Shown here: in pieces, positions 1,346-26,499 of the stretch
How positions within the stretch are numbered: the first letter of the stretch is position 1
Layout of the letters: the number at the start of each line of letters is the position of its first letter
Origin: a virus
Length of the DNA: 32,291 nucleotides
IMG/VR virus record: IMGVR_UViG_3300042010_000072
Coordinates: 1-32,291 of that record
Reading direction: 5' to 3' (one strand)
Position numbers and translations under genes: made by a program
Notes under the pieces: model-generated
Databases searched by the model: none
What the model saw: the letters and a program-made list of their open reading frames with translations, nothing else
Told to the model about the DNA's origin: nothing

Positions 1346-3208
1346 ATGGCGCTAATTGCTGAGATCGATGAGACCGATCCCACTAAGATAAAGATAGCAG
1401 AGTTTGAATGGAAGGACAAGGTTCTTCTCAACTCAGTTCCATCGGCGCACTTCAAGGCCAAGGATAGCTCTTGGACGTACAGCCTTACATGGCAGACCTG
1501 TTTGGCGCTGCAATCCACCTTCAAGGAAAAGCTCACCGTTGGGCCTAAGTTGAAAGCGTGGGTTCAAGACCTATACAATAACGTAGTTCTGCCAGCCTAT
1601 GGTATGCGTATGGAGATCACTCCTCCCGGTTGGGAAGAAGTGATGCCCGATGTGGGACTGTACCCACACCAGAAGGGGGATGTCGCTTTCCTTTCCACGG
1701 TGAAACGTGGTATGCTGTTCAACGGAATGGGTTCCGGCAAGTCGATCTCCTCGACCGGAGCCATTCGTCAGTTGGCTGCACAGGGAGACCGTGTGTTTCC
1801 GATGCTTGTAGCGTGCCCGAACTCAACCAAAATGGGTTGGAAAAAGGAAATCCTCAAGGTCTGGCCGGGGCTGAAGATCAATGTGATCGACGGAACGGCC
1901 ACTCAACGGCGCAAGCTGCTGGAGGAAGAGGCACACGTATATATAATCAACTGGGAATCCATTCGAGCACATTCCAAGCTGAAACCCTTCGGCTCCATTG
2001 CGCTCAAGCGCTGTACAGAGTGCAAGGGACTTGACAACAAAATCAAGGCAGCGACCTGTGAGGCTCACGCCAAGGAACTGAACGCAATTGAGTTCAAGTC
2101 TGTTATCGGTGACGAAATCCACCGTATCAAAGATCCTGCATCCAAGACCGCCCGTGCGTTCAAGGCTGCTACCGGAGATGCGGAGATCAGGATTGGACTT
2201 TCGGGTACTCCGATTGCCTCGAATCCTGAAGACCTGTTCTCTCCGCTGAACTGGCTGTTTCCGGAGGCTTACCCGTCCCGGAACAAGTTCATCGACCGAT
2301 TTTGCATCACTGCGGATTCGGCATGGGGCGGTAAGATCGTCATTGGTATCCGTCCTGAGATGGAGCAAGAGTTCTTCAACGGCATCGACCCGTTCACGCG
2401 TCGTATGTCCAAGGAAGTAATTCTACCGTTCCTGCCTCCGGTTGTCTACGAACGTAGAGACGTGGAGATGGGCACCAAGCAGGCCAAGGCGTACAAGCAG
2501 ATGCAAGAGCAGATGATCGCTGAGGTAGAGGGTGGAGACATCATCTACACCACATCGCCGCTCACCAAACTCACAAGGCTCCTGCAATTCTCTTCGGCCT
2601 TCGCTGAGGTAGAGTATCGTGATATTTACGATCCTAAGCTCGCAGCAGTGGTCAACAAGGCGTACGTCCGTCTCTCCGACCCATCGTGCAAGCTTGATGC
2701 TTTCATGGATGATCTGGAAGACTATGGCGACGAATCATTGGTAATCTTTGCAGTGTCCTCCCAGCTTATCAACATGCTATCAGCACGTCTGGATAAGCTC
2801 AAGATTCCGCACGGACTAATTACCGGTGATCAGGATGCCAAAGAGCGCGAAATGCACATGGAAAACTTCCAGTCTGGAAGGACCAAGTACATTCTGTGCA
2901 CCATTGCTGCCGGTGGAACCGGTATTACCCTCACAAAGGGCAGTACAGCCGTCTTCCTCCAGCGCTCTTGGTCCATGATCGAGAACCTACAGGCTGAGGC
3001 ACGAGTTCACCGTATCGGTTCGGAAGTCTATGACTTTATCCGGATCGTGGATTACGTCACAAAGGATTCCAGTGAGGAGATTGTCTTCAAGGCGGTAGAG
3101 GAGAAATCCAACCAGCTTGAGTACATCCTGAGGGACAAGCTACTGATGGAGAAGTTCATCAGGGGCGAACTATCAATAAAACCAGAAGAAACGAAAGAAA
3201 ACGAATGA
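1346..3208 (+). CDS. SNF2-type DEAD/DEAH-box (SF2) helicase
   Basis: 620 residues from ATG 1346 with GAAAGAG upstream. Motif I is NGMGSGKS (126-133). Motif II is DEIH (about 256), motif III SGTP (about 286). Domain 2 carries AAGGTGITLT (motif V) and QAEARVHRIG (motif VI, arginine finger). This is the SNF2/Rad54-like branch of superfamily 2: an ATP-driven duplex translocase acting in replication or recombination. The insert with Cys residues (RCTECKG...TCEAH) between motifs I and II could bind zinc. The last codon overlaps the thyX start by 4 bases, which suggests translational coupling. Confidence 0.92.
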   Translation: MALIAEIDETDPTKIKIAEFEWKDKVLLNSVPSAHFKAKDSSWTYSLTWQTCLALQSTFKEKLTVGPKLKAWVQDLYNNVVLPAYGMRMEITPPGWEEVMPDVGLYPHQKGDVAFLSTVKRGMLFNGMGSGKSISSTGAIRQLAAQGDRVFPMLVACPNSTKMGWKKEILKVWPGLKINVIDGTATQRRKLLEEEAHVYIINWESIRAHSKLKPFGSIALKRCTECKGLDNKIKAATCEAHAKELNAIEFKSVIGDEIHRIKDPASKTARAFKAATGDAEIRIGLSGTPIASNPEDLFSPLNWLFPEAYPSRNKFIDRFCITADSAWGGKIVIGIRPEMEQEFFNGIDPFTRRMSKEVILPFLPPVVYERRDVEMGTKQAKAYKQMQEQMIAEVEGGDIIYTTSPLTKLTRLLQFSSAFAEVEYRDIYDPKLAAVVNKAYVRLSDPSCKLDAFMDDLEDYGDESLVIFAVSSQLINMLSARLDKLKIPHGLITGDQDAKEREMHMENFQSGRTKYILCTIAAGGTGITLTKGSTAVFLQRSWSMIENLQAEARVHRIGSEVYDFIRIVDYVTKDSSEEIVFKAVEEKSNQLEYILRDKLLMEKFIRGELSIKPEETKENE

Positions 3209-3960
3209 CAGAACCAACAACAGCCAAGCGTCCCGTCAACATTGATGAGATCGAACTTATTCCGGCAAGGTTTCGCAGTGACGTGACAGTTCAGCTTGTG
3301 GACTCCATGGGCACGGAGGAGAATATTGTACGCTCCGCTAGGGTTTCCACCAAGGGAGCCGATTCTAGGGGCACAGAAGCCAACACAGGGCTTGTCAGGT
3401 ACCTTTACCGCGAAGGACACGGTACTCCGTTTGAATCATGTGTCCTTCAGTGGTACTTTGAGACTCCCATCTTTGTGGACCGCCAGATCATGACCCACCG
3501 TATCGCTTCCACCAACGGTGAGTCTGGCCGGTATAAGACGATGGAAGGCGAGTTCTACGTCGTTGGAGAGGACCGTCCCTTGGTACAGGTAGGCAAGGTC
3601 GGAGCGTATACTTTCGAACTTGGCCGTCCTGACCAGCGTGGCGCTGTCCAGTTCGTGCAAAAGGCAGCAGCGGAATCAGCATGGGAGAACTACCAGAAGC
3701 TCAAGGCTTATGGGATCTCCAACGAGGTAGCACGGGAGCACCTTCCTACTACGCTCTACGTGTCCCGCTATTGGACGGCAAATTTGAGGGCAACCCTCAA
3801 CTTCATGTCTCTTCGTAAGGACTGGGGACCGGATGCTCTGCACCAGTCCAAGGCCCAGTACGAGATCGCGCTCATGGTTGAACCCATGGCAGAAATTGTC
3901 AAAGAGAAGTTCCCCACAGTGTGGGAGTGCTTCGTTGAAAGCGGCTACCGAGCCGTTTGA
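3205..3960 (+). CDS. thyX: FAD-dependent thymidylate synthase ThyX
   Basis: 251 residues. Converts dUMP to dTMP with methylene-tetrahydrofolate, FAD and NADPH. Recognised by VDRQIMTHRIASTNGESGRY (about residues 92-111), the ThyX signature region. The usual RHR-x7-S reads THR-x7-S here, so the first Arg is replaced by Thr while the second Arg and the Ser remain. GTPFE upstream and the C-terminal region with LRKDWGPDALHQSKAQYEIA are also typical of the family. The length matches ThyX proteins (about 220-250). The start overlaps the helicase stop. It belongs functionally with the ribonucleotide reductase block further on. Confidence 0.93.
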   Translation: MTEPTTAKRPVNIDEIELIPARFRSDVTVQLVDSMGTEENIVRSARVSTKGADSRGTEANTGLVRYLYREGHGTPFESCVLQWYFETPIFVDRQIMTHRIASTNGESGRYKTMEGEFYVVGEDRPLVQVGKVGAYTFELGRPDQRGAVQFVQKAAAESAWENYQKLKAYGISNEVAREHLPTTLYVSRYWTANLRATLNFMSLRKDWGPDALHQSKAQYEIALMVEPMAEIVKEKFPTVWECFVESGYRAV

Positions 3961-3983
3961 CATTCAAACAAAGTTAGGCTAAA

Positions 3984-4952
3984 ATGGGATACAATACAGA
4001 GCCTTTCTTGGGGAGGAATCCGGAGTCGGTGTCTATCACCAACTCCGAGATTCAGACCTTCAAGGATTGCCGACGCAAATGGTGGCTTGGGACATACCGA
4101 GCGCTGAAGCCGAAGAACAAGACCTATGTCGGCCCTCTTACCCTTGGTATCCGCATTCACAATGCGCTGGAGTTGTTTTACACGACTGGTGAGAATCCGG
4201 TTGATGAATATGAACGTCTTCAGCGCATTGACAATGCGTTGTTCGAAGCCAGTAATGATGCGAACTTTGAGGACAAGGTAAAGAAGTTCAACAGCGAAGC
4301 CGAACTAGGGCGTATCATGCTTGAGGGCTACATGGAGTGGATGGCAGAGACCAATCCCGACGCGGATATTGAAGTGATCGCGGCTGAATCGAAGCTCTCC
4401 ACCCGTCTGGAAATGGACCCGCGTGTTGAACTGATGGGAAAGACCGACCTCAAGGTCCGTAGAGCCTCCAGCGGTCGGCATGCACTGATGGACCATAAGT
4501 CGGCAGCATCCTTCAACTCATACTACGAGACTTCCCACATGTCAGAACAGCTTATGCTCTACGTCATTTTGGAGAAGCTGGATACCGTGAACGGTGATCC
4601 CAAAGTAGATGGGGGAATCTACAACCTTCTCAAGAAGGTCAAGCGTTCCTCAAAAGCAAGTCCTCCGTTCTACGAGAGGCTGGATGTCAGATTCAACGAC
4701 AAGCAGCTTCAGTCGTTCTGGATTAGGACAATGGGTACTGTTCGTGATATAATGGAACTACGCGACAGGCTGGATGCCGGTGAGGATCACCGTTTCTATG
4801 CATACCCAAGCCCCACAAAAGATTGCACATGGAAATGCCCATTCTTCCAAGTGTGCCCCATGTTTGATGATGGATCATCCGCAGAAGCTATGCTTGAAGA
4901 ACTCTATGAACAAGCAGATCCTAATGCGCGTTATGAAGAAGAAAACGAATAA
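3984..4952 (+). CDS. Cas4/RecB-like PD-(D/E)XK exonuclease
   Basis: 322 residues from ATG 3984. C29 in KDCRRKWWLG, together with the C-terminal CTWKCPFFQVCP, gives the four-Cys arrangement that binds an iron-sulphur cluster in Cas4/AddB-type nucleases. The nuclease core shows GKTDLKV and LMDHKSA, the D...DxK of the PD-(D/E)XK fold, followed by QLMLYVI. It is expected to resect DNA ends for strand annealing or exchange. It directly precedes a RecA-like ATPase and an SSB-like protein, a recombination trio common in phages. There is no CRISPR array or cas1/cas2, so a CRISPR role is not implied. Confidence 0.85.
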   Translation: MGYNTEPFLGRNPESVSITNSEIQTFKDCRRKWWLGTYRALKPKNKTYVGPLTLGIRIHNALELFYTTGENPVDEYERLQRIDNALFEASNDANFEDKVKKFNSEAELGRIMLEGYMEWMAETNPDADIEVIAAESKLSTRLEMDPRVELMGKTDLKVRRASSGRHALMDHKSAASFNSYYETSHMSEQLMLYVILEKLDTVNGDPKVDGGIYNLLKKVKRSSKASPPFYERLDVRFNDKQLQSFWIRTMGTVRDIMELRDRLDAGEDHRFYAYPSPTKDCTWKCPFFQVCPMFDDGSSAEAMLEELYEQADPNARYEEENE

Positions 4953-4966
4953 GAAAGTGGTACTAA

Positions 4967-5788
4967 ATGTCCGATAGATCGCTAACGATGCTTGTTCACG
5001 GCATGTCTGGAGCAGGTAAATCTACGCTAGCAACCTCGGCACCCAAGCCTCTACTGTATCTCGACGTAGAAATGGCAAGCAGGTTCCTCCGTGGCCGAAA
5101 GAAGAAGTGGAATCCACTTACGGAAGCGCCGCCTGAAGCTGATGGTTCTTGGGATATCTGCGTTGTAACTCTTGATGAGTTTGCAAAGGCCCAGAAAGCG
5201 TACGAGTACCTGAAGAGTGGCCGTCACCCGTTCAAGTCGGTAGTCGTTGACTCGATCTCCGAACTCCAGTCCAAGGCTGTAGAAAACATCAAGGGTCGTC
5301 AGCAGCTTCAAACACAGGACTGGGGAAAGCTCCTGTCTGTCATGTCGTTCTTCTGTCGAGATCTGCGAGACCTAGCCGGAACAGATGACAAGATTGACGC
5401 GGTAGTTATCACCGCCATGTCCCGTGACTACGATGGAATTGTGAAGCCGTACCTTCAGGGTCAGATCGCTTCTCAGGTTCCTTACTGGTTCGACATTACC
5501 GCGTACCTCTACATTCAGCAGGTCGCTGATCCCGTCACCGGAGAACTGCGCGATACGCGAAACCTCCTTGTAGGTAATCACCCGAACTACGAAGCCAAGT
5601 CACGTGTTCCCGGACTGCCTACAGTCATCGAGAACCCCGACGTAACGGTCATGCTCAACAACATCTTCGGTGAAGATGTTGCGGCTGCTCCAGTAGCGGC
5701 TCCTGTTCAGGATCTACCTCCTCAGGGTCCGTCCTTCGTTTCTCCGGATCTCGTTTCAGCCGGTCAGCCGGAACCACCTAGCCTCTAG
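4967..5788 (+). CDS. RecA-like NTPase, Sak4-type recombinase
   Basis: 273 residues from ATG 4967, 14 bases after the exonuclease. Walker A is GMSGAGKST (about residues 13-21). VVVDSISEL supplies Walker B. The domain is a compact RecA/AAA core with a C-terminal Pro/Ala-rich tail (AAPVAAPVQDLPPQG onward) that is probably flexible. Sak4-type proteins are single-strand annealing or exchange proteins that work with an SSB. The neighbouring exonuclease and SSB-like gene fit this. A simple AAA protein of other function cannot be excluded. Confidence 0.75.
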   Translation: MSDRSLTMLVHGMSGAGKSTLATSAPKPLLYLDVEMASRFLRGRKKKWNPLTEAPPEADGSWDICVVTLDEFAKAQKAYEYLKSGRHPFKSVVVDSISELQSKAVENIKGRQQLQTQDWGKLLSVMSFFCRDLRDLAGTDDKIDAVVITAMSRDYDGIVKPYLQGQIASQVPYWFDITAYLYIQQVADPVTGELRDTRNLLVGNHPNYEAKSRVPGLPTVIENPDVTVMLNNIFGEDVAAAPVAAPVQDLPPQGPSFVSPDLVSAGQPEPPSL

Positions 5789-12604: not shown

Positions 12605-12678
12605 CGGGGTGTGGCTCAGCTTGGTAGAGCGCCTGATTTGGGATCAGGAGGTCGCATGTTCAAATCATGTCATCCCGA
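12605..12678 (+). tRNA. tRNA-Pro (TGG)
   Basis: Acceptor CGGGGTG pairs with CATCCCG. The anticodon arm CCTGA-TTTGGGA-TCAGG gives TGG. T loop TTCAAAT. Its 3' end is adjacent to the HNH gene. Confidence 0.94.
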
Positions 12679-12711
12679 CGTAATAAACAAAGTATTTGGA
12701 AGGAAATTTGT

Positions 12712-13437
12712 TTGGCTAGGAGACCCAAGAGTATTTGGGAAGATAAAGACTCTCTTCTGAAAGCTTCTCAGTCGTCCAAGTCCATAGCAGATGCCGTCCG
12801 ATCTCTAGGACTAGCTTCGAATAGTGGCAATAGGAAGCAGTTCAAATCCTATTGTAGTAAGTATGGTATAGATCTTCCTGTCTGGGACTATTCTTCAGGT
12901 GGGGGAGGGGCTAAGAAAACTTTAACTAATGCTGAAGTATTCTGCAACCCTAGCAAGGAACGTAATGGATCTAGGTTAAAGAGTATTCTACTCCGAGACT
13001 ATGGATACGTGGACATCTGTGATGAATGTGGGTTGGGTCCGGAATGGAACGGCAAGCCAATTGTACTACAGTTGGATCACATTGATGGTAATAGACTGAA
13101 CAATGAGATCAAAAATTTGCGAATATTGTGTCCAAACTGTCACACACAGACGGACACTTTCTCCAATAAGAGATCTACTCCTGATATTAGAGATATCTGC
13201 GCCTGTGGTTCAAAGAAGACTAGAAGTGCCTTCCAATGCTACAAATGTAGGGCATGCGACAGTGTGGGCGAAACAAAAGTTGACTATCCGGAACTTTCTG
13301 ATATAATTAAGTTGATCAACTCAACCGGAAGTCTAGTTGGGGCCTCAAGGATCATCGGGGTTTCTGATAACGGCTTAAGGAAACATCTCAAGCGAAACGG
13401 GGTAGATCCCAGAGATGTAAATGCGTACGTCGTATAA
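12712..13437 (+). CDS. HNH endonuclease (homing type) between tRNA genes
   Basis: 241 residues from TTG 12712 (MARRPKSIWEDK), which has GGAAGGAA 6 bases upstream. ATG 12667 is also in frame but lies inside tRNA-Pro. Order of parts: an N-terminal DNA-binding region; CDECGLGPEWNGKPIVLQLD with the following HIDGNRLNNEIKNLRILCPN, the zinc-stabilised HNH site; a Cys-rich ribbon (CACGSKKTRSAFQCYKCRAC); and a C-terminal helix-turn-helix (GASRIIGVSDNGLRKHLKRNG). The gene fills the space between tRNA-Pro and tRNA-Gly, and its last 15 bases form the 5' end of tRNA-Gly. It is more A/T-rich than its surroundings, consistent with a mobile nuclease gene. Confidence 0.88.
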   Translation: MARRPKSIWEDKDSLLKASQSSKSIADAVRSLGLASNSGNRKQFKSYCSKYGIDLPVWDYSSGGGGAKKTLTNAEVFCNPSKERNGSRLKSILLRDYGYVDICDECGLGPEWNGKPIVLQLDHIDGNRLNNEIKNLRILCPNCHTQTDTFSNKRSTPDIRDICACGSKKTRSAFQCYKCRACDSVGETKVDYPELSDIIKLINSTGSLVGASRIIGVSDNGLRKHLKRNGVDPRDVNAYVV

Positions 13438-14971: not shown

Positions 14972-15056
14972 GGAGAGTAAACCGGACAGGCGCACCGGCA
15001 CGGTCTTGAAAACCGATGGTACCGAAAGGTATGGCTTTCAAATAGTCTGCTCTCCG
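14972..15056 (+). tRNA. tRNA-Ser (TGA)
   Basis: Acceptor GGAGAGT/GCTCTCC. The arm CGGT-CTTGAAA-ACCG gives TGA. Long variable arm (GTACC...GGTAT). The T stem is weak. Confidence 0.85.
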
Positions 15057-15078
15057 CTTAGAATAAAGGTTGGTGACT

Positions 15079-15648
15079 GTGCGAGAAAGAATTTTGGAGC
15101 TTCGTGGACGAGGATACTCCTACAATAGGATTATAGAAATCTTAGGATGTTCCAAAAGCACGGTCTCGTATTATATTGGTAAAGGTCAGAAGGAAAAACA
15201 CGCGGATCGGCAAAAATCGAGACGTAAAAATGACATACTTCGTCAGAGAACAGAGAGATTTAAAAGTACACCCGCAAAAGGTAACCCTAAACCAGTGCCA
15301 AAGGCGGATTATGCGAAGAGGATGCGGCACAAAATCGAAGACTTCCATAGAACCACAGATGGATACGATGATCGAAACTTTACCCTAGCTGATGTTTGGA
15401 AGAAGATCGGAGATCGACCTATATGTCATATCTCAGGTAGAGATATTGATCTAAGTGATCCTCATGCTTTTGCCTTTGATCATATCATTCCGAGGTCCAA
15501 AGGCGGCGATAACTCACTAGAGAACCTAGGTGTCGCAACAAAGGAAGCCAACTTAGCTAAAAGTAACCTCACCATGGAAGAACTCTTGAATCTCTGCTCA
15601 GACATACTCAGACATAATGGATATTCAGTAACAAAATCTGGAGAGTAG
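15079..15648 (+). CDS. HNH endonuclease with N-terminal helix-turn-helix
   Basis: 189 residues if the start is GTG 15079 (MRERILEL), 9 bases after AAAGG; TTG 15070 and GTG 15073 are in frame but too close to that site. Residues about 1-35 are a helix-turn-helix (GYSYNRIIEILGCSKSTVSY), then a basic linker. The C-terminal HNH site contains ICHISGRDIDL, FAFDHIIPRSKGGDNSLENL and the closing EANLAKSN. Homing endonucleases of this layout are common in phages. The gene lies between tRNA-Ser(TGA) and tRNA-Ser(GGA), and its last 9 bases are the 5' end of the second. It is A/T-richer than its neighbours. Confidence 0.88.
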   Translation: MRERILELRGRGYSYNRIIEILGCSKSTVSYYIGKGQKEKHADRQKSRRKNDILRQRTERFKSTPAKGNPKPVPKADYAKRMRHKIEDFHRTTDGYDDRNFTLADVWKKIGDRPICHISGRDIDLSDPHAFAFDHIIPRSKGGDNSLENLGVATKEANLAKSNLTMEELLNLCSDILRHNGYSVTKSGE

Positions 15649-15723
15649 CCCTGTAAGGTTGCAGGCCACGCTTGGAAAGCGTGTGGCAGTGAAAGCTGTG
15701 GGATTCGAGTTCTCTGCTCTCCG
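15640..15723 (+). tRNA. tRNA-Ser (GGA)
   Basis: Acceptor GGAGAGT/GCTCTCC, identical to the Ser(TGA) gene. The arm CACGC-TTGGAAA-GCGTG gives GGA. Long variable arm. Overlaps the HNH stop. Confidence 0.93.
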
Positions 15724-15727
15724 CGAA

Positions 15728-17121: not shown

Positions 17122-17205
17122 GGAGAGTAACGCTAGAAGGTTCTAGTCTCTGATTGCTAATCAGAAGGCGGCAAAGTTCGTGGGTTTCGAATACTCTGCT
17201 CTCCG
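17122..17205 (+). tRNA. tRNA-Ser (GCT)
   Basis: Acceptor GGAGAGT/GCTCTCC, same as the two other Ser genes. The arm TCTGA-TTGCTAA-TCAGA gives GCT. Long variable region. Confidence 0.88.
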
Positions 17206-17206
17206 C

Positions 17207-17352: not shown

Positions 17353-17436
17353 GGGTGCGTGGCGGAATTGGCGAGACGCGCAGGGTTTAGGTTCCTGTAC
17401 TATGATACATTGTGGGTTCAAGTCCCACCGCGCCTA
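17353..17436 (+). tRNA. tRNA-Leu (TAG)
   Basis: Acceptor GGGTGCG/CGCGCCT. The arm CAGGG-TTTAGGT-TCCTG gives TAG. Long variable arm. Confidence 0.92.
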
Positions 17437-17448
17437 CGGTATATAAAT

Positions 17449-17521
17449 GCCTTTATAGCTCAGTGGACAGAGCGGGGAGCTTCTACCTCCTAGGTCGTGG
17501 GTTCGAATCCTACTAAGGGCA
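17449..17521 (+). tRNA. tRNA-Arg (TCT)
   Basis: Acceptor GCCTTTA/TAAGGGC. The arm GGGAG-CTTCTAC-CTCCT gives TCT. Confidence 0.92.
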
Positions 17522-17537
17522 CGTAACAACTAAATAA

Positions 17538-17618
17538 GCCGGTACCCTAGTGGCCTAGGAGCGAGACTGTAAATCTCGTGTCATTGCGACAATGTGGGAT
17601 CGATACCCTCTGCCGGTA
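17538..17618 (+). tRNA. tRNA-Tyr (GTA)
   Basis: Acceptor GCCGGTA/TGCCGGT. The arm CGAGA-CTGTAAA-TCTCG gives GTA. Long variable arm as in bacterial Tyr; T loop ATCGATA. Confidence 0.92.
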
Positions 17619-17630
17619 CGTAGTAAACTA

Positions 17631-17701
17631 GCCTCTATAGCTGAGTGGTATAGCACCGTCCTCTTAAGTCGGGGAGCTTGGTTCGATTCCAAGTGGGGGC
17701 A
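17631..17701 (+). tRNA. tRNA-Lys (CTT)
   Basis: Acceptor GCCTCTA/TGGGGGC. Arm CCGTC-CTCTTAA-GTCGG (one T/T mismatch) gives CTT. Confidence 0.88.
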
Positions 17702-17702
17702 C

Positions 17703-17785
17703 GTTGGATTAGTGTAAGGAAATTCTAGATATTAGCACTCTCCCATGTTCAGGGAGAAGTTCCAGTTTGACTCTGGAGTCCACAG
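17703..17785 (+). tRNA. Aberrant tRNA-like gene, possibly Asn (GTT)
   Basis: Anticodon-like arm CTCCC-ATGTTCA-GGGAG gives GTT, and the T arm TCCAG-TTTGACT-CTGGA is sound. The acceptor stem holds only 5-6 pairs (TGGATT/AGTCCA). The only D-stem candidate (AGTG/CACT) encloses about 21 bases, and base 37 is C. Probably a decayed tRNA or a tRNA-like RNA; a normal tRNA-Asn exists at 24847. Confidence 0.45.
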
Positions 17786-17791
17786 CCACTT

Positions 17792-17870
17792 GCCTTTGTA
17801 GCTCAGTCTGGTCTAGAGCAGCGTACTTTTAATACGCGGGTCTTGGGTTCGAATCCCAACGGGGGCACCA
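17792..17870 (+). tRNA. tRNA-Lys (TTT)
   Basis: Acceptor GCCTTTG/CGGGGGC. The arm GCGTA-CTTTTAA-TACGC gives TTT. CCA is encoded at 17868-17870. Confidence 0.93.
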
Positions 17871-17873
17871 TAC

Positions 17874-17881
17874 TGTATAAT
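17874..17881 (+). promoter_or_regulatory. -10-like box
   Basis: TG immediately followed by TATAAT (17876-17881), 26 bases before the membrane-protein ATG. No convincing -35, so weak support. Confidence 0.35.
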
Positions 17882-17907
17882 TGAACCTACCAACAGTAGG
17901 AGAAATT

Positions 17908-18228
17908 ATGCACGACCTCAAGTCGAAAATCCTTGACTTCTGGGAACTCTTCCAGAACGACATGGCATTCAATAAACGACTCCACGGCTGGCTAACCCTT
18001 ATCTGGTTCGTAGCCGCCTTCCCAATCGCAATCTGGCTCTCCGAGTCTGTACCGTTTCTGGTTTTTGTTTCGGTATACGCTGTGGTAGGATTCCACTGGA
18101 GTATTTGGTTCCAGACCAAAATTGAGAAGAAACACGAAGACAAGCCGGTAGAAGATCAAGTTCTAGGCAAGCTTGACGAAGATACCGATGTCGAAGTAGA
18201 CTCGGACAAGAAGATTCACTCAAGTTGA
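17908..18228 (+). CDS. Membrane protein with acidic tail
   Basis: 106 residues from ATG 17908 with GTAGGAGA upstream. Two adjacent hydrophobic stretches (LTLIWFVAAFPIAIWL and VPFLVFVSVYAVVGFHWSIW, residues about 37-76) look like a two-helix hairpin. A charged C-terminal tail follows (KIEKKHEDK... DEDTDVEVDSDKK). Both ends would lie on the same side of the membrane. No family recognised. It resembles small holin-like or immunity proteins in layout only. Confidence 0.7.
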   Translation: MHDLKSKILDFWELFQNDMAFNKRLHGWLTLIWFVAAFPIAIWLSESVPFLVFVSVYAVVGFHWSIWFQTKIEKKHEDKPVEDQVLGKLDEDTDVEVDSDKKIHSS

Positions 18229-18253
18229 CACTCAAACAGTCGGGTGGTAGACT
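18225..18253 (+). promoter_or_regulatory. Promoter of the conserved 244-aa gene
   Basis: TTGACA (18225-18230), 17-base spacer, TAGACT (18248-18253), 40 bases before the ATG. The TGA in the -35 is the upstream stop codon. Confidence 0.65.
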
Positions 18254-18293
18254 TGAAACATAACGACGAACGACTAACAGAAAAGGAACACTT

Positions 18294-19028
18294 ATGACTA
18301 AGCTCAATCAGATCATTGCCGTAGAAAAGGGCGTCAAGTCCAAGGCAACCCGCGATTTCACCGACCTCCACCGCGGAGTCCTCAAGACCCCTCTTCTTCA
18401 GGGTCTCTCCCGTACCTACCAGCCGAAGGATGAGGAAGGCGATCAGCTTCCTCCGGAGTCCACGCTGGTTCAGGTTAAGGCCGAAGAGGTCATCGGCAAG
18501 GTGGCTGACACCCTCACCAACCTCTTTGATGTCACCCTGACCAAGGAGAAGGCCAACGCTGTCGCTACCGCCGACGTAAAGGTTGGCGACAAGACCATTC
18601 TCCGTGACGTTCCGGTGACCTACCTGCTCTTCCTTGAGAAGCAGCTTAACGACGTTCACACGTTCGTCTCCAAGCTCCCGACTCTTGACCCGTCTCAGGA
18701 GTGGACCTATGACCCAGCAGCAGGCCAGTACTCCACTGCTGTCACCCAGACCGTTCGCACCAAGAAGGTGCCGAAGAACTGGGTCAAGGCTGAAGCCACC
18801 GACAAGCACCCTGCTCAGGTTGAGATCTTCCACGAAGATGTCATCGTGGGTACGTGGTCCAAGAAGGAGTTCTCCGGTGCGCTCCCGGCCACCCGAGTCA
18901 ACGAACTTATTACCCGTGTTGAAGCCCTCCAGACCGCTGTGAAGTTTGCACGCGAAGAGGCCAACAACACCGAAGTCACGAATGCCCAAGCTGGCAAGGC
19001 CGTGTTTGACTACTTGTTCGCCAAGTAG
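18294..19028 (+). CDS. Conserved phage/actinobacterial protein of unknown function
   Basis: 244 residues from ATG 18294 with AAAAGGAACA upstream and its own promoter. The beginning KLNQIIAVEKGVKSKATRDF, the segment RTYQPKDEEGDQLPPEST and the end VKFAREEANN recall a protein family often seen in Streptomyces phages and in actinobacteria. Its function is unknown to me. It is soluble, mixed alpha/beta, without signal peptide or recognisable catalytic motif. Codon use is strongly G/C-ending compared with neighbours, suggesting high expression. Transcription probably runs on into the permuted tRNA region. Confidence 0.85.
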   Translation: MTKLNQIIAVEKGVKSKATRDFTDLHRGVLKTPLLQGLSRTYQPKDEEGDQLPPESTLVQVKAEEVIGKVADTLTNLFDVTLTKEKANAVATADVKVGDKTILRDVPVTYLLFLEKQLNDVHTFVSKLPTLDPSQEWTYDPAAGQYSTAVTQTVRTKKVPKNWVKAEATDKHPAQVEIFHEDVIVGTWSKKEFSGALPATRVNELITRVEALQTAVKFAREEANNTEVTNAQAGKAVFDYLFAK

Positions 19029-19039
19029 TCCCCTAGATT

Positions 19040-19071
19040 CCCTGTTGAGCACAGGGTAGCGCGTGTAGCGC
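19040..19071 (+). other. Two hairpins in the leader of the permuted tRNA
   Basis: CCCTGT/ACAGGG (19040-19045 with 19051-19056, 5-base loop) and GCGC/GCGC around GTGTA (about 19059-19071) precede the permuted tRNA-Leu. There is no T-run, so they are more likely processing or stabilising elements than a terminator. Confidence 0.45.
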
Positions 19072-19076
19072 ATAGA

Positions 19077-19172
19077 CTGAAGTTAAAATTCAGACTGATA
19101 GCCCAGACCGCCCAGTGATGGTTCGACCCCATCCCCTCCGACTCGACGGAGGGTAGCCCAATGGTAGAGGCA
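19077..19172 (+). tRNA. Circularly permuted tRNA-Leu (TAA)
   Basis: The 3' part comes first. Anticodon arm CTGAA-GTTAAAA-TTCAG (19077-19093) gives TAA with U33 and A37. A variable region of 23 bases with ACTG/CAGT ends is followed by T arm GATGG-TTCGACC-CCATC (19117-19133), acceptor CCCTCCG (19134-19140) and discriminator A. After 5 bases (CTCGA) the 5' part follows: acceptor CGGAGGG (19147-19153), TA, and a Leu-type D arm (19156-19171) with GG in its loop. The acceptor halves pair perfectly over 7 bp. The gene break lies between tRNA positions 26 and 27. Leu(TAA) is the isoacceptor missing from the ordinary Leu set here. A linear reading is impossible. Confidence 0.72.
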
Positions 19173-19251
19173 CGGAGTAAGCGTATCAAGTTCAGATTAT
19201 TGCTCCAGACTAAGCACAACTACCGCACACGTCTAATCGACCGTCCAAAAA

Positions 19252-19352
19252 CTAAATTACGCGGCAGGGGTTCGAATCCCCTTCCGGCCTCTGTGTCCAA
19301 GACACTGCACCAATCCATGGCCGGATAGCTTAGTGGCAGAGCGCTTAATCTC
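19252..19352 (+). tRNA. Second circularly permuted tRNA, anticodon unresolved
   Basis: The 3' part has T arm AGGGG-TTCGAAT-CCCCT (19266-19282), acceptor TCCGGCC (19283-19289) and discriminator T. A 28-base spacer carries hairpin GTGTC/GACAC. The 5' part has acceptor GGCCGGA (19319-19325), TA, and D arm GCTT...GAGC with GG (19328-19342). The acceptor halves match over 7 perfect pairs. The break seems to be in the anticodon loop: CTTAA (19344-19348) faces TTACG (19257-19261). Beyond it, TTTTTGGAC (19360-19368) pairs fully with GTCCAAAAA (19243-19251), and ACGTGT with ACACGT. Assembling the loop gives no unique anticodon. Discriminator T suggests Cys or Gly, otherwise Arg(CCT). Confidence 0.65.
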
Positions 19353-19362
19353 AGAATGATTT

Positions 19363-19392
19363 TTGGACTTAAACGTGTAGATGTGATAAACT
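19363..19392 (+). promoter_or_regulatory. Promoter candidate for the 57-aa gene
   Basis: TTGGAC (19363-19368), 18-base spacer, TAAACT (19387-19392) preceded by TGA (extended -10). It overlaps the 3' flank of the second permuted tRNA. Confidence 0.35.
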
Positions 19393-19409
19393 ATGTGGAC
19401 ATTAGCTAA

Positions 19410-19442
19410 GACCTCCAGTCGTCGGATATGCGACTGGAGGTC
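19410..19442 (+). other. Perfect 12-bp hairpin in the leader of the 57-aa gene
   Basis: GACCTCCAGTCG (19410-19421) pairs fully with CGACTGGAGGTC (19431-19442) around a 9-base loop, 22 bases before the ATG. There is no T-run; it may be a transcript-end or leader structure, or an operator. Confidence 0.6.
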
Positions 19443-19464
19443 GTCCCACATTCAAGGAGAACCC

Positions 19465-19638
19465 ATGCCACAGTCCCGAGAAGATAGAATTTACCTAGCC
19501 TACAAGACAACTAAGGCGAAGCTCCAGAGCGAAGGCTTGACAGATCGACTGCATGGGCGTACACTTCTATATATCGCACAGGTTTTCAATGTTTCTCCCC
19601 TAGTGATTCAAAAGATCGTTAGGGATAGGCAAAAGTAA
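19465..19638 (+). CDS. Small helix-turn-helix-like protein (57 aa)
   Basis: ATG 19465 with CAAGGAGA upstream. An in-frame upstream ATG (19393) would run through the hairpin and is rejected. The protein is basic and helical. Residues about 30-55 (LHGRTLLYIAQVFNVSPLVIQ followed by KIVRDRQK) resemble a helix-turn-helix, so it could bind nucleic acid. No family assigned. It sits between the permuted tRNAs and the tRNA-like region. Confidence 0.6.
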   Translation: MPQSREDRIYLAYKTTKAKLQSEGLTDRLHGRTLLYIAQVFNVSPLVIQKIVRDRQK

Positions 19639-19641
19639 CAA

Positions 19642-19760
19642 CGGAAGTTAGTTTTGAGTCCAAAGGCCACGTTTCTAAAGTACACGGAAACAAAAGAGGC
19701 TGGGCAGGCAAAACACTGGGTGTAGTCCCAGAGACGAAGGTTCGAACCCTTCACGTCCGA
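19642..19760 (+). ncRNA. tRNA-like structured RNA element 1
   Basis: T arm GAAGG-TTCGAAC-CCTTC (19736-19752), acceptor-like ACGTCCG and discriminator A. The best 5' partner is CGGAAGT (19642-19648, 6 of 7 pairs), followed by TA. Between them no normal D arm is visible. There are hairpins GTTTC/GAAAC with an 11-base loop (19671-19691) and CTGGG/CCCAG with a 6-base loop (19716-19731). At 119 bases it is too long for a standard tRNA. It may be an interrupted or decayed tRNA, or part of a larger RNA. Confidence 0.4.
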
Positions 19761-19814
19761 CGAGTCTGGTGGCGCTCTTGTTTTACAGCCACTTGGGTAG
19801 GGTCGCTCCCTACA

Positions 19815-19883
19815 GGGCCGGATGGACGCATCCACGGTAGAAAGTCCGCGCAGGACGAAGAGGTTCGAATCCTCAAGGCCCAC
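19815..19883 (+). ncRNA. tRNA-like structured RNA element 2, no anticodon arm
   Basis: GGGCC (19815-19819) pairs with GGCCC (19877-19881). A possible D arm GGAC/GTCC encloses GGTA. The T arm GAGG-TTCGAAT-CCTC (19860-19874) is clear. Only about 12 bases separate the D and T arms, so there is no room for an anticodon arm. Upstream hairpins GTGGC/GCCAC and GTAGG/CCTAC (up to 19813) and downstream ACGG/CCGT and GAC-TTCG-GTC continue the structured stretch to about 19960. Confidence 0.4.
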
Positions 19884-20034
19884 TGCAAGCACAACGGACA
19901 AGGCTATGGACCGTAACAGAAAGTTCAAGCGGTAGGAGACTTCGGTCGCTTTTACTACTCAATGATTTCTCAGCCGGTTTGGGATGCGCGTGGTTGACCA
20001 GCTTGCTTCATTTAGATAGAACTATAGGAAATGT
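19884..20034 (+). other. Non-coding stretch before the nuclease gene
   Basis: No ORF is supported. It contains a UUCG hairpin (GAC/GTC near 19940) and an enclosing GTAG/CTAC pair. A weak TTGACC box (19994-19999) lies 17 bases before TAGAAC. It may belong to the structured RNA of 19.64-19.98 kb. Confidence 0.4.
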
Positions 20035-20364
20035 ATGAATTCGATCCAATACAGGTATAAAGCTCAGGTCGTCAAGTGGGTGGATGGAGATACCGTAGAC
20101 ATGTTGGTGGATCTAGGATTCTACCATTTCGTCAAGACCCGATTCCGACTCTATGGAATTGACACCCCGGAACGAGGCGATGCCCTCTGGGGAGAGGCTA
20201 CTACCTTTGCTGAGCTTATGGCTCCGGAAGGAACTGAGGTAGTTATCGATGTCTATAAGAGCGCAGACAAGTACGGTCGTTGGCTGGTGAACATATTTGT
20301 TGAGGGCCAGTCCGTCAACGAATCCCTTGTATCGTCTGGATTTGCAGTCCCTTACTCGGTCTAG
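20035..20364 (+). CDS. Thermonuclease (SNase)-like nuclease
   Basis: 109 residues from ATG 20035 with TAGGAA upstream. Staphylococcal nuclease-like OB fold: VKWVDGDTVDMLVDLGF (first metal-binding Asp), TRFRLYGIDTPERG (Arg, Asp and Glu of the active site) and KYGRWLVNIFVEGQSVNESL (second Arg region). It cleaves DNA or RNA non-specifically with calcium. No signal peptide is seen, so it probably acts in the infected cell, for example in host DNA turnover. It is shorter than secreted SNases (about 150). Confidence 0.88.
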   Translation: MNSIQYRYKAQVVKWVDGDTVDMLVDLGFYHFVKTRFRLYGIDTPERGDALWGEATTFAELMAPEGTEVVIDVYKSADKYGRWLVNIFVEGQSVNESLVSSGFAVPYSV

Positions 20365-20392
20365 TTGACAAAGATCTAACATAGAGTATAAT
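20365..20392 (+). promoter_or_regulatory. Strong promoter of the endolysin gene
   Basis: TTGACA (20365-20370), 16-base spacer, TATAAT (20387-20392), beginning right after the TAG of the nuclease gene and 50 bases before the endolysin ATG. Confidence 0.8.
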
Positions 20393-20427
20393 AGTCGGAT
20401 GCTAAAATAGAGTATACCATACTCTAT
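20381..20427 (+). repeat. Operator-like direct and inverted repeats
   Basis: ATAGAGTATA occurs at 20381-20390, overlapping the -10 box, and again at 20407-20416. The second copy is followed by the inverted ATACTCTAT (20419-20427), giving a 9-bp palindrome with loop ACC. The placement suits repressor binding at the endolysin promoter, or a leader hairpin in the mRNA. Confidence 0.6.
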
Positions 20428-25527: not shown

Positions 25528-26499
25528 TTGCGTCAGCTTGTCACGCTCGAAACCATTTCAGAAATCAACGAACACACAAATGCAGATGACCTTGAAATTG
25601 CCAAGGTGCGCGGCTGGAACGTTGTAGTCAAGAAGGGCGAATTTCAGCCCGGAGACGAAGTGGTTTACTTCGAAATCAACTCTTTCCTTCCCATTTCCGA
25701 CCCTCGGTTCTCTTTCCTTGAACCTCGCGGTGTCCGCGTCCTTGACGGTGTAACGGGCCACGTTCTCGGTACTATCCGCCTGCGTGGTCAGTGGTCACAG
25801 GGCCTCATCAAGCCAGCTTCCGAATTCCCTGAAGGTCTCCCTGAGATCAAGAAGTGGGAGAAGCCTATTCCGGCTGAGATCGAAGGCACCACCGAAGGCC
25901 ACTTCCTCTACGAGTTCGCCCCGAAGACTGATGCTGAGCGTATCCAGAATCTCGGTCGAGTCCTTGACGAAATCCTCACACATGAGTGGATCGCCACCGA
26001 GAAGATCGATGGAACCTCAACCACCATCGTCAATGATGGCGGCAACATCCGCATCTGCTCCCGCAACTGGGAGATCAGCCGACCCAGCGCCCGCTTTGAT
26101 CTGGCCGACAAGCTCAACCTTGTTGAGATTCTACCTGAAGGCCACGCTCTTCAGGGAGAATACTACGGCGAGAACATCCAGTCCAACCCTCTGAAGATCA
26201 AGGGAACCGACTTCAAGGCGTTCAACCTGTACAAGAAGACCGAAAACGGCCCTGTCGTTGTTCCGTTCGATGAGTGGCCCGACGCATTGGTCCCTCTCCG
26301 CGTCCCTGTGCTGCCTCTGACGCTCCCGCAGACCATCGATGAGATTGTGGATCAGGCTGACGGAATGATGTCTGTAATCGCCCCACAGCGCCGCGCAGAG
26401 GGCATCGTGTGGCAGGGTCCGAAGGGCTTCCAGTTCCTCGGGAACCGTCCCGGCTTCAAGGCGATCTCCAACACCTACGCCGCAAAGCACGACAACTAA
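25528..26499 (+). CDS. RNA ligase with N-terminal OB domain
   Basis: 323 residues from TTG 25528 with GAAGGAGC upstream. Residues 1-115 look like an OB-type domain (KVRGWNVVVKKGEFQPGDEV). The ligase core begins with motif I EKIDGTSTTI (K159 takes AMP). RNWEIS, ALQGEYYGENI, FKAFNLYK (motif IIIa), EGIVWQ (motif IV) and FKAISNTY (motif V) follow in order. The N-terminal OB arrangement matches the Deinococcus-type RNA ligase branch. It seals RNA nicks and could repair tRNAs cut by host anticodon nucleases. Given the permuted tRNAs 6 kb upstream, it could also join their ends. It directly follows tRNA-His. Confidence 0.88.
   Translation: MRQLVTLETISEINEHTNADDLEIAKVRGWNVVVKKGEFQPGDEVVYFEINSFLPISDPRFSFLEPRGVRVLDGVTGHVLGTIRLRGQWSQGLIKPASEFPEGLPEIKKWEKPIPAEIEGTTEGHFLYEFAPKTDAERIQNLGRVLDEILTHEWIATEKIDGTSTTIVNDGGNIRICSRNWEISRPSARFDLADKLNLVEILPEGHALQGEYYGENIQSNPLKIKGTDFKAFNLYKKTENGPVVVPFDEWPDALVPLRVPVLPLTLPQTIDEIVDQADGMMSVIAPQRRAEGIVWQGPKGFQFLGNRPGFKAISNTYAAKHDN

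Follow-up and report, generated by a model that had tools for sequence, protein, structure and literature searches.

In the permuted tRNA genes of algae and archaea, the 3′ half lies ahead of the 5′ half, a linker separates the two and the acceptor strands are complementary. The circularly permuted two-piece tmRNA also has its permuted halves in one gene and is reported to function as unligated pieces (PMC3978253); linker excision by tRNA-processing enzymes has been proposed for permuted pre-tRNAs in the same paper. The bacterial Y RNA YrlA (Rfam RF02553), the partner RNA of Ro60/Rsr, is described as having D, T and acceptor arms in a tRNA-like domain (PMC8394870). Its module has the permuted order T arm–acceptor–D arm, the RNA lies near its own protein gene and modules can occur in pairs.

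The window analyzed here (the whole stretch of 32,291 nt, positions 1 to 32,291 of viral record IMGVR_UViG_3300042010_000072) contains an RNA element of ~340–400 nt that is located directly 3′ of a DUF7873 gene and includes two permuted modules. Unlike the permuted tRNA genes, it has no conserved anticodon loop (U33, anticodon) and is not a stand-alone tRNA. Unlike the two-piece tmRNA, it has two tRNA-like bodies rather than one, no match to the tmRNA model and no evident tag frame. It differs from YrlA in carrying two modules in one RNA beside DUF7873, together with hexamer tracts and a predicted pseudoknot, and in that TROVE was not found in the DUF7873 phages tested.

An RNA with two permuted tRNA-like bodies and a linked protein seems to have been unnamed so far. 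No Rfam family matched the RNA at threshold in the stretches scanned, and a literature search in which most subscription journals were outside scope returned neither DUF7873 nor, among titles and abstract openings, a paper apparently describing such an RNA. Our preferred interpretation, to which we assign a probability of roughly 60%, is that the DUF7873 protein and this RNA form an undescribed ribonucleoprotein (RNP), in which the RNA would be a dual tRNA mimic whose linkers are probably excised by host tRNA enzymes.

Organization of the RNA element

The element begins with two hairpins and a YUNARN hexamer tract, after which comes module 1. A second tract, which includes the pseudoknot partner, separates it from module 2, and the last part is a terminal hairpin (Table 1). 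Within each module the chain runs from the T arm through the acceptor 3′ strand, the linker and the acceptor 5′ strand to the D arm. To judge from the sequence, the modules have the shape of a tRNA body, and each has an anticodon-type stem that opens at its end into the hexamer tracts.

Table 1. Positions in the window of the DUF7873 gene and the parts of the RNA element
Feature	Position	Strand	Evidence
DUF7873 protein gene (PF25283), presumed protein partner, 244 aa	18294..19028	+	Pfam E 4.8e-108; AlphaFold pLDDT 87.6; upstream of RNA in most loci tested
Hairpin H1, CCCTG-TTGAGCA-CAGGG	19040..19056	+	Stem by eye; loop GAGCA predicted to pair with TGCTC 19201–19205 (pseudoknot)
Hairpin H2, GCGC-GTGTA-GCGC	19059..19071	+	By eye; varies among relatives
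Hexamer tract T1, CATAGA CTGAAG TTAAAA TTCAGA CTGATA	19071..19100	+	0/300 shuffles; family-wide tract score; includes the anticodon arm of the earlier note (19077–19093)
Module 1 T arm, 5/5 pairs	19117..19133	+	Sequence, permuted-module detector, RNAalifold, covariation
Module 1 acceptor 3′ strand CCCTCCG	19134..19140	+	Detector, covariation
Module 1 linker ACTCGA, presumed excised	19141..19146	+	Detector, processing-mark counts
Module 1 acceptor 5′ strand CGGAGGG 19147–19153 (7/7) and D arm 19156–19171	19147..19172	+	Detector, RNAalifold, covariation
Hexamer tract T2, with conserved TGCTC 19201–19205	19185..19214	+	Comparison with relatives, tract score
Predicted closing helix, 5′ strand, partner 19378–19383	19230..19235	+	RNAalifold on 14 RNAs, columns 330–335 with 496–501
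Module 2 outer helix, 5′ strand GTCCAAAAA, partner 19360–19368	19243..19251	+	Mimi equivalent GTCAACA/TGTTGAC (by eye)
Module 2 T arm 19266–19282 and acceptor 3′ strand TCCGGCC 19283–19289	19266..19289	+	Rfam, detector, RNAalifold
Module 2 linker, 29 nt	19290..19318	+	Detector
Module 2 acceptor 5′ strand GGCCGGA 19319–19325 and D arm 19326–19343	19319..19343	+	Rfam, detector, RNAalifold
Module 2 outer helix 3′ strand 19360–19368, conserved CTTAAACGT, closing helix 3′ strand 19378–19383	19360..19383	+	Relatives' alignment, RNAalifold
3′ terminal hairpin with CGGATATG loop, likely transcript end	19410..19442	+	By eye; similar hairpins in L008, L027, L074

Module 1 lies within a tRNA array and was recovered by a mechanical permuted-module detector that gives 5 hits per 1.57 Mb of shuffled sequence. 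ARAGORN and Rfam, which both expect the normal order of arms, made no call there at their own thresholds. With a loose threshold over 17400–20400, Rfam places a weak YrlA match on module 1 (19116–19171, 17 bits, E 4.9) and another, scoring higher, across module 2 (19242–19372, 32.9 bits, E 1.3e-4). An earlier note on this DNA, made from the letters alone, had recognized module 1 and overlooked the second module at 19266–19343, ~150 bases downstream.

Module 1 and the permuted tRNA-Leu reading

The earlier note took module 1 for a circularly permuted tRNA-Leu(TAA) gene. The T arm, the 7/7 acceptor and the D arm that it described are present at 19117–19172 and are found by the detector, and in relatives the pairs of the acceptor and T arm covary, which is the compensating change that it had proposed to look for. 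One comparison is with the related Arthrobacter phages Mimi, Talia1610 and Racecar, which are near-identical to one another and are therefore counted as a single independent comparison. Their sequence aligns well with the window in this region, but the acceptor reads CCCCGGC/GCCGGGG where the window has CCCTCCG/CGGAGGG. Exchange of the acceptor for a different, fully paired stem is strong evidence of selection on pairing. By this comparative evidence, the circularly permuted arrangement is genuine and subject to selection.

The anticodon arm proposed for 19077–19093 does not survive the same comparison. Its loop, GTTAAAA in the window, is GATGAAA in the three phages, with loss of both U33 and TAA; in L007 the loop reads GTTGAAA and the stem has one broken pair. 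The hairpin sits inside the six-base YUNARN repeat run, and across 14 relatives RNAalifold gives tract 1 a 4-pair hairpin whose pairs differ from those of the proposed stem.

That this is a true tRNA-Leu(TAA) gene whose product matures by some unknown route, perhaps via a phage RNA ligase, is very unlikely. The order of the parts and the stems do match those of permuted tRNA genes, and the window has an RNA ligase gene at 25528–26499. Joining the halves in rotated order, as the earlier note had suggested, gives sequences that ARAGORN accepts in 49 of 50 cases for module 1 and 52/52 for module 2 (mismatched halves, 19–30/50 and 17–26/52), but the joins yield no consistent anticodon. The discriminator base, which has a role in charging, is A, T or G across modules; varied acceptor stems and discriminators argue against charging by one synthetase. 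The identity as tRNA-Leu is further contradicted by the varying anticodon loop and by the occurrence of the module beside DUF7873 in bacterial genomes, and it leaves the second module and the conserved tracts unexplained.

Linkage to DUF7873 genes

Relatives were fetched mostly via the protein, with the RNA disregarded; a DNA search supplied the three Arthrobacter phages. A strict module was defined by a T stem of 5/5, an acceptor of 7/7 and a D arm. The first phage set of 36 loci comprises the window, the three Arthrobacter phages, 19 viral contigs and 13 other phage records, and includes near-duplicates (L009 is nearly identical to the window, L001–L003 are near-identical and L012 duplicates L008). 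Strict modules lie within 747 nt downstream of DUF7873 in 35 of these loci; the sole miss, L033, has a match further downstream to R1, a covariance model of module 1 and its tracts. Two larger sets were ranked by protein, taking the best 80 of 177 viral relatives and the best 80 of at least 439 bacterial ones, the latter from Streptomyces, Nocardia, Lentzea, Actinomadura and others. Four of the 80 viral loci were omitted because the flank was too short, and the contigs of L007–L025 recur among L040–L119. Strict modules are found within the same 747 nt downstream of DUF7873 in 67/76 viral contigs and 80/80 bacterial loci, and there are two or more in 44/76 and 55/80, respectively. Other same-strand segments of the same loci gave 6/322 in the first set, and 6/522 (viral) and 2/937 (bacterial) in the larger sets, whose segments overlap by half. 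Additional controls in the first set gave 1/1800 for shuffles and 0/394 for the opposite strand.

The nine misses in the 76-contig viral set are L050, L074, L077, L081, L082, L100, L101, L114 and L118. R1 recovers L050, L074, L077, L100 and L101, and gives a doubtful match in L114 (14.4 bits). DUF7873 is present in L081, L082 and L118, where neither the strict detector nor R1 detected the RNA.

DUF7873 is patchy, with 6 of 198 genomes positive in one phylum sample. Whole-model R1 matches of 115–127 bits occur in 5 of the 198, all among those six; the sixth, G203, had no R1 match in that search, which used stricter filters. Weaker matches (34–45 bits) are seen in G055, G225, G096 and G130, with extra ones in G139, G160, G193 and G214. 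Those in G096 and G130 are tRNA clusters, G225 also has an ordinary tRNA cluster and some matches of 34–44 bits span the whole model. Among phages, 73 records with DUF7873 are named for Vibrio, Gordonia, Rhizobium, Klebsiella, Serratia, Arthrobacter, Pseudanabaena, Rhodococcus and Microcoleus, and the RNA was sought in 16 of them. The RNA–protein pair is common to phages with hosts of several phyla and to Streptomyces, Nocardia, Lentzea and their relatives. Examination of 10 ORFs at 8 bacterial loci revealed no common partner among the neighboring genes.

These counts bear on two other explanations. The first, that the modules are decayed tandem tRNA genes or chance matches, draws on the position in a tRNA array and on the resemblance of a 3′ half–spacer–5′ half to the junction of adjacent tRNA genes. 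We regard it as exceedingly improbable and reject it, given the compensating changes across phages and bacteria and the DUF7873-linked counts set against near-zero controls; moreover, ARAGORN calls no tRNA in the fetched sequence of 57 of the 80 bacterial loci. The second is that the element belongs to the 3′ untranslated part of the DUF7873 mRNA and regulates expression of that same mRNA, without forming a separate RNP. The location of the RNA 3′ of DUF7873 on the same strand in most loci is what this would predict. Full tRNA-like elbows, NCCA in the encoded sequence, a pair of modules and a terminal hairpin exceed the needs of a stability element, however, and some of the RNAs lie ~500 bases further on (L019, L020 and L104), making this explanation unlikely.

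ARAGORN places ordinary tRNAs inside some modules, which is a warning for annotators. At L126 (3767–3853) and similar bacterial loci, its tRNA calls (Phe, Ala, Ser) fall within module 1 and are likely misannotations.

Covariation and long-range pairing

Applied to 14 RNAs with no structure supplied, RNAalifold finds the three arms of both modules and a helix around module 2; for 33 of its 46 pairs, at least one sequence carries a change on both sides. Three long-range pairs are also predicted, linking GAGC, assigned by eye to the H1 loop, with a GCTC conserved in the stretch that separates the modules. The third of these pairs is G-C in 6 and A-U in 5 of the 14 RNAs. In a wider set it is standard in 39/58 loci (a count with no control), the 58 being those left after 84 loci were set aside (35 without a GAGC hairpin, 35 without GCTC and 14 with long linkers). 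For module 1, the named structure scores 0.553 for covariation in 40 sequences, compared with 0.159 when shuffled and at most 0.138 when slid. Since 38 of the 40 were picked by the strict detector and a linker length of at most 10, their 100% pairing is partly due to selection and is not independent evidence.

The two strands that make up the anticodon-type stem are the one preceding the variable loop and the one following the D arm. All five pairs are possible in 19 of 50 copies of module 1 (partner-shuffled mean 3.4, maximum 8, 200 rounds) and in 29 of 52 copies of module 2 (mean 5.1, maximum 10). That of the window is weak, with 3/5 pairs in the near-identical contig L042. Modules with a 5/5 stem are, by their predicted pairing, complete tRNA bodies minus the anticodon loop, with their ends entering the hexamer tracts.

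Hexamer tracts and the tmRNA comparison

Runs of YUNARN-type hexamers are present at p 0.05 in 23 of 29 loci; no significant run was detected in the other six (L010, L011, L030, L035, L036 and L037). For 42 two-module viral loci, the tract scores exceed the maximum of 20 shuffles at T1 (4.5 versus 1.56), T2 (2.44 versus 1.65) and T3 (2.30 versus 1.51). Complementarity of the free N position was used to look for pairing between tracts. The signal is weak for tracts 1 and 2, where 10/200 shuffles score as high, and absent for 1 with 3 (122/200) and 2 with 3 (150/200); tract 1 with itself scores above 199/200 shuffles.

The tracts could be viewed as tag codons of a tmRNA-like translation RNA, a permuted multi-piece molecule that enters the ribosome. 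The two-piece tmRNA is a precedent for a permuted RNA that works unligated (PMC3978253), and the present element adds a predicted pseudoknot, a candidate protein partner and hexamers that can be read, by eye, as alternating basic and hydrophobic codons. The codons themselves speak against this reading. The tracts carry AGR, whereas the DUF7873 genes of the same loci use CGN 792 times to 67 for AGR, so the tracts look like an RNA motif and a coding tag is unlikely. No stop is conserved (by eye) and the tmRNA covariance model has no match in 17400–20400 of the window up to E 5. We consider a tmRNA-like function improbable.

Relationship to Y RNAs

The similarity to YrlA raises the question of whether the element is a Y RNA of the YrlA/YrlB type that binds a Ro60/Rsr protein from phage or host. 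Besides module 2, YrlA is matched by modules in L120, L133 and L198, three of five bacterial loci tested. Y RNAs bind Ro through a basal 5′/3′ stem, for which the outer helix of module 2 might be a candidate counterpart. The 32.9 bits of module 2 fall below the YrlA gathering score of 69, a weakly informative shortfall given that examples near TROVE are also below it (42.5). A Ro-like gene occurs together with a permuted module in Arthrobacter phage Atuin, pairs of YrlA-like modules lie ~1 kb from TROVE in G055 and G225, and in one DUF7873 genome (G027) TROVE is on the same contig, ~7.7 kb from DUF7873, which is mild evidence for a link.

The distribution of TROVE nevertheless makes Ro60 an unlikely partner. 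It was found in 0/16 DUF7873 viral records (possibly fragments) and was not found in Mimi, Talia1610 or Racecar, the three closest complete phages, or in the window, itself a fragment. Atuin is not among the three Arthrobacter phages with DUF7873. Of 16 DUF7873-bearing genomes, 6 have a TROVE match and 10 do not, and in 5 of the 6 it is on another contig or >500 kb away. The RNAs also differ: R1 aligns to the module pairs near TROVE over positions 43–105 or less with at most 45.3 bits, but to the DUF7873 RNAs over 1–145 with at least 115 bits. Because R1 covers the YrlA-like RNAs near TROVE only over the module, the two kinds of RNA are separable, though possibly related. Together with the failure to find TROVE/Ro60 in those 19 DUF7873 virus records, 16 of which may be fragments, this leaves a Y RNA identity quite unlikely.

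Phage Atuin (L004) carries its Ro-like protein gene at 3039–4682 and its permuted module, which is YrlA-like, at 5136–5198. L205 and L206 have two tandem YrlA-like modules at about 1240–1600 on the minus strand, near TROVE genes; the linkers in L206 are a tight TTCGG in one module and ACCACAC in the other. Deinobacterium chartae, a non-actinobacterial control genome, has both a DUF7873 family match and a TROVE match.

Possible processing marks at the linkers

If host enzymes excise the linkers, traces of tRNA processing would be expected at their borders. Of 102 distinct viral modules, 37 carry NCCA after the acceptor, compared with an expectation of 2.75. A T at base −1, where RNase P prefers U, occurs in 68, and a G-C first acceptor pair in 84. 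The marks are weaker in bacterial modules, where the corresponding counts (not deduplicated) are 27/135, 40/135 and 113/135. The linkers appear expendable. In L050, a 607-nt stretch with an ORF that is HNH-like by eye (2815–3421) occupies the module 1 linker, between the acceptor strands. We infer linker excision by tRNA enzymes from the NCCA, the T at −1 and these expendable linkers. The NCCA could instead be a relic of descent from tandem tRNA genes; ACCACAC is the linker of one Y RNA module close to TROVE.

The DUF7873 protein

The AlphaFold model of DUF7873 is confident (pLDDT 87.6) and the protein is not basic (pI 6.5). Sequence comparisons gave best E values of 0.0028 against PHROGs (in 3/18 members), 0.003 against PADLOC (in 1/18 members) and 0.14 against PDB sequences. 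No clear fold match was obtained with Foldseek PDB, VIA-align or BFVD. Foldseek PDB showed weak enrichment for Cas7 (E 0.011 and up, TM about 0.1), a protein with six-base RNA periodicity; Cas7 is absent among the 50 VIA-align matches listed. The one structural match in BFVD is A0A7M1RW91, an uncharacterized protein of uncultured phage cr118_1 (probability 1.00, E 0.027, TM 0.45/0.59).

A model for a proposed RNP

That the RNA and DUF7873 belong to one RNP is proposed because they are adjacent and occur together. In our model, the RNA and the adjacent DUF7873 protein would assemble into one particle. Since both modules offer tRNA elbows and acceptor ends, they would probably be recognized by host RNase P, by tRNase Z or exonucleases and by the CCA enzyme, and would lose their linkers to them, leaving a multi-piece RNA held by its acceptor stems. 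The particle may act via tRNA mimicry in the manner of Ro/Y RNA RNPs, with DUF7873 replacing Ro. Several observations count against the RNP: (i) DUF7873 is not basic and has no clear fold match; (ii) the RNA was not detected beside DUF7873 in L081, L082 and L118, nor an R1 match in G203 and (iii) 6/29 loci are without a significant hexamer run and the bacterial processing marks are weaker.

A more specific version, which we offer tentatively and think somewhat less likely to be right than wrong, is a phage and actinobacterial RNP in which RNase P and tRNase Z excise both linkers. This would yield an RNA in three pieces that has CCA ends and is kept together by its acceptor stems, with the lattice of six-base YUNARN repeats bound by DUF7873 subunits. 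If so, circular permutation of a tRNA would serve the building of a scaffold rather than the making of a tRNA. The RNP as first proposed, with or without these details, would add a further natural tRNA mimic to tmRNA and Y RNA and provide a tractable bacterial system for study.

Neighboring sequences

The tRNA array contains further genes that ARAGORN missed. A Tyr-like tRNA gene is located at 17538–17618 (Rfam 25.6 bits), and Ser-like genes with unusual T arms can be seen by eye at 14972–15058, 15641–15724 and 17123–17206; Mimi has annotated Ser tRNA genes in the corresponding part of its array. ORFs resembling HNH endonucleases (by eye) lie within the array at 12667–13437 and 15070–15648. 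The RNA ligase gene of the window combines a PHA02142 OB fold with an RNA_ligase domain, is annotated in Mimi as well and could bear on RNA repair or processing.

Downstream of the element, the stretch at ~19763–19885 is missing from Mimi, Talia1610, Racecar and Atuin. The segment that follows (19885–20010), which starts with GCAAGCAC and ends with GCTTGC, is conserved in these four phages and has a T-arm-like element upstream of it at ~19738–19756. Its ends can pair, so it is perhaps another structured RNA.
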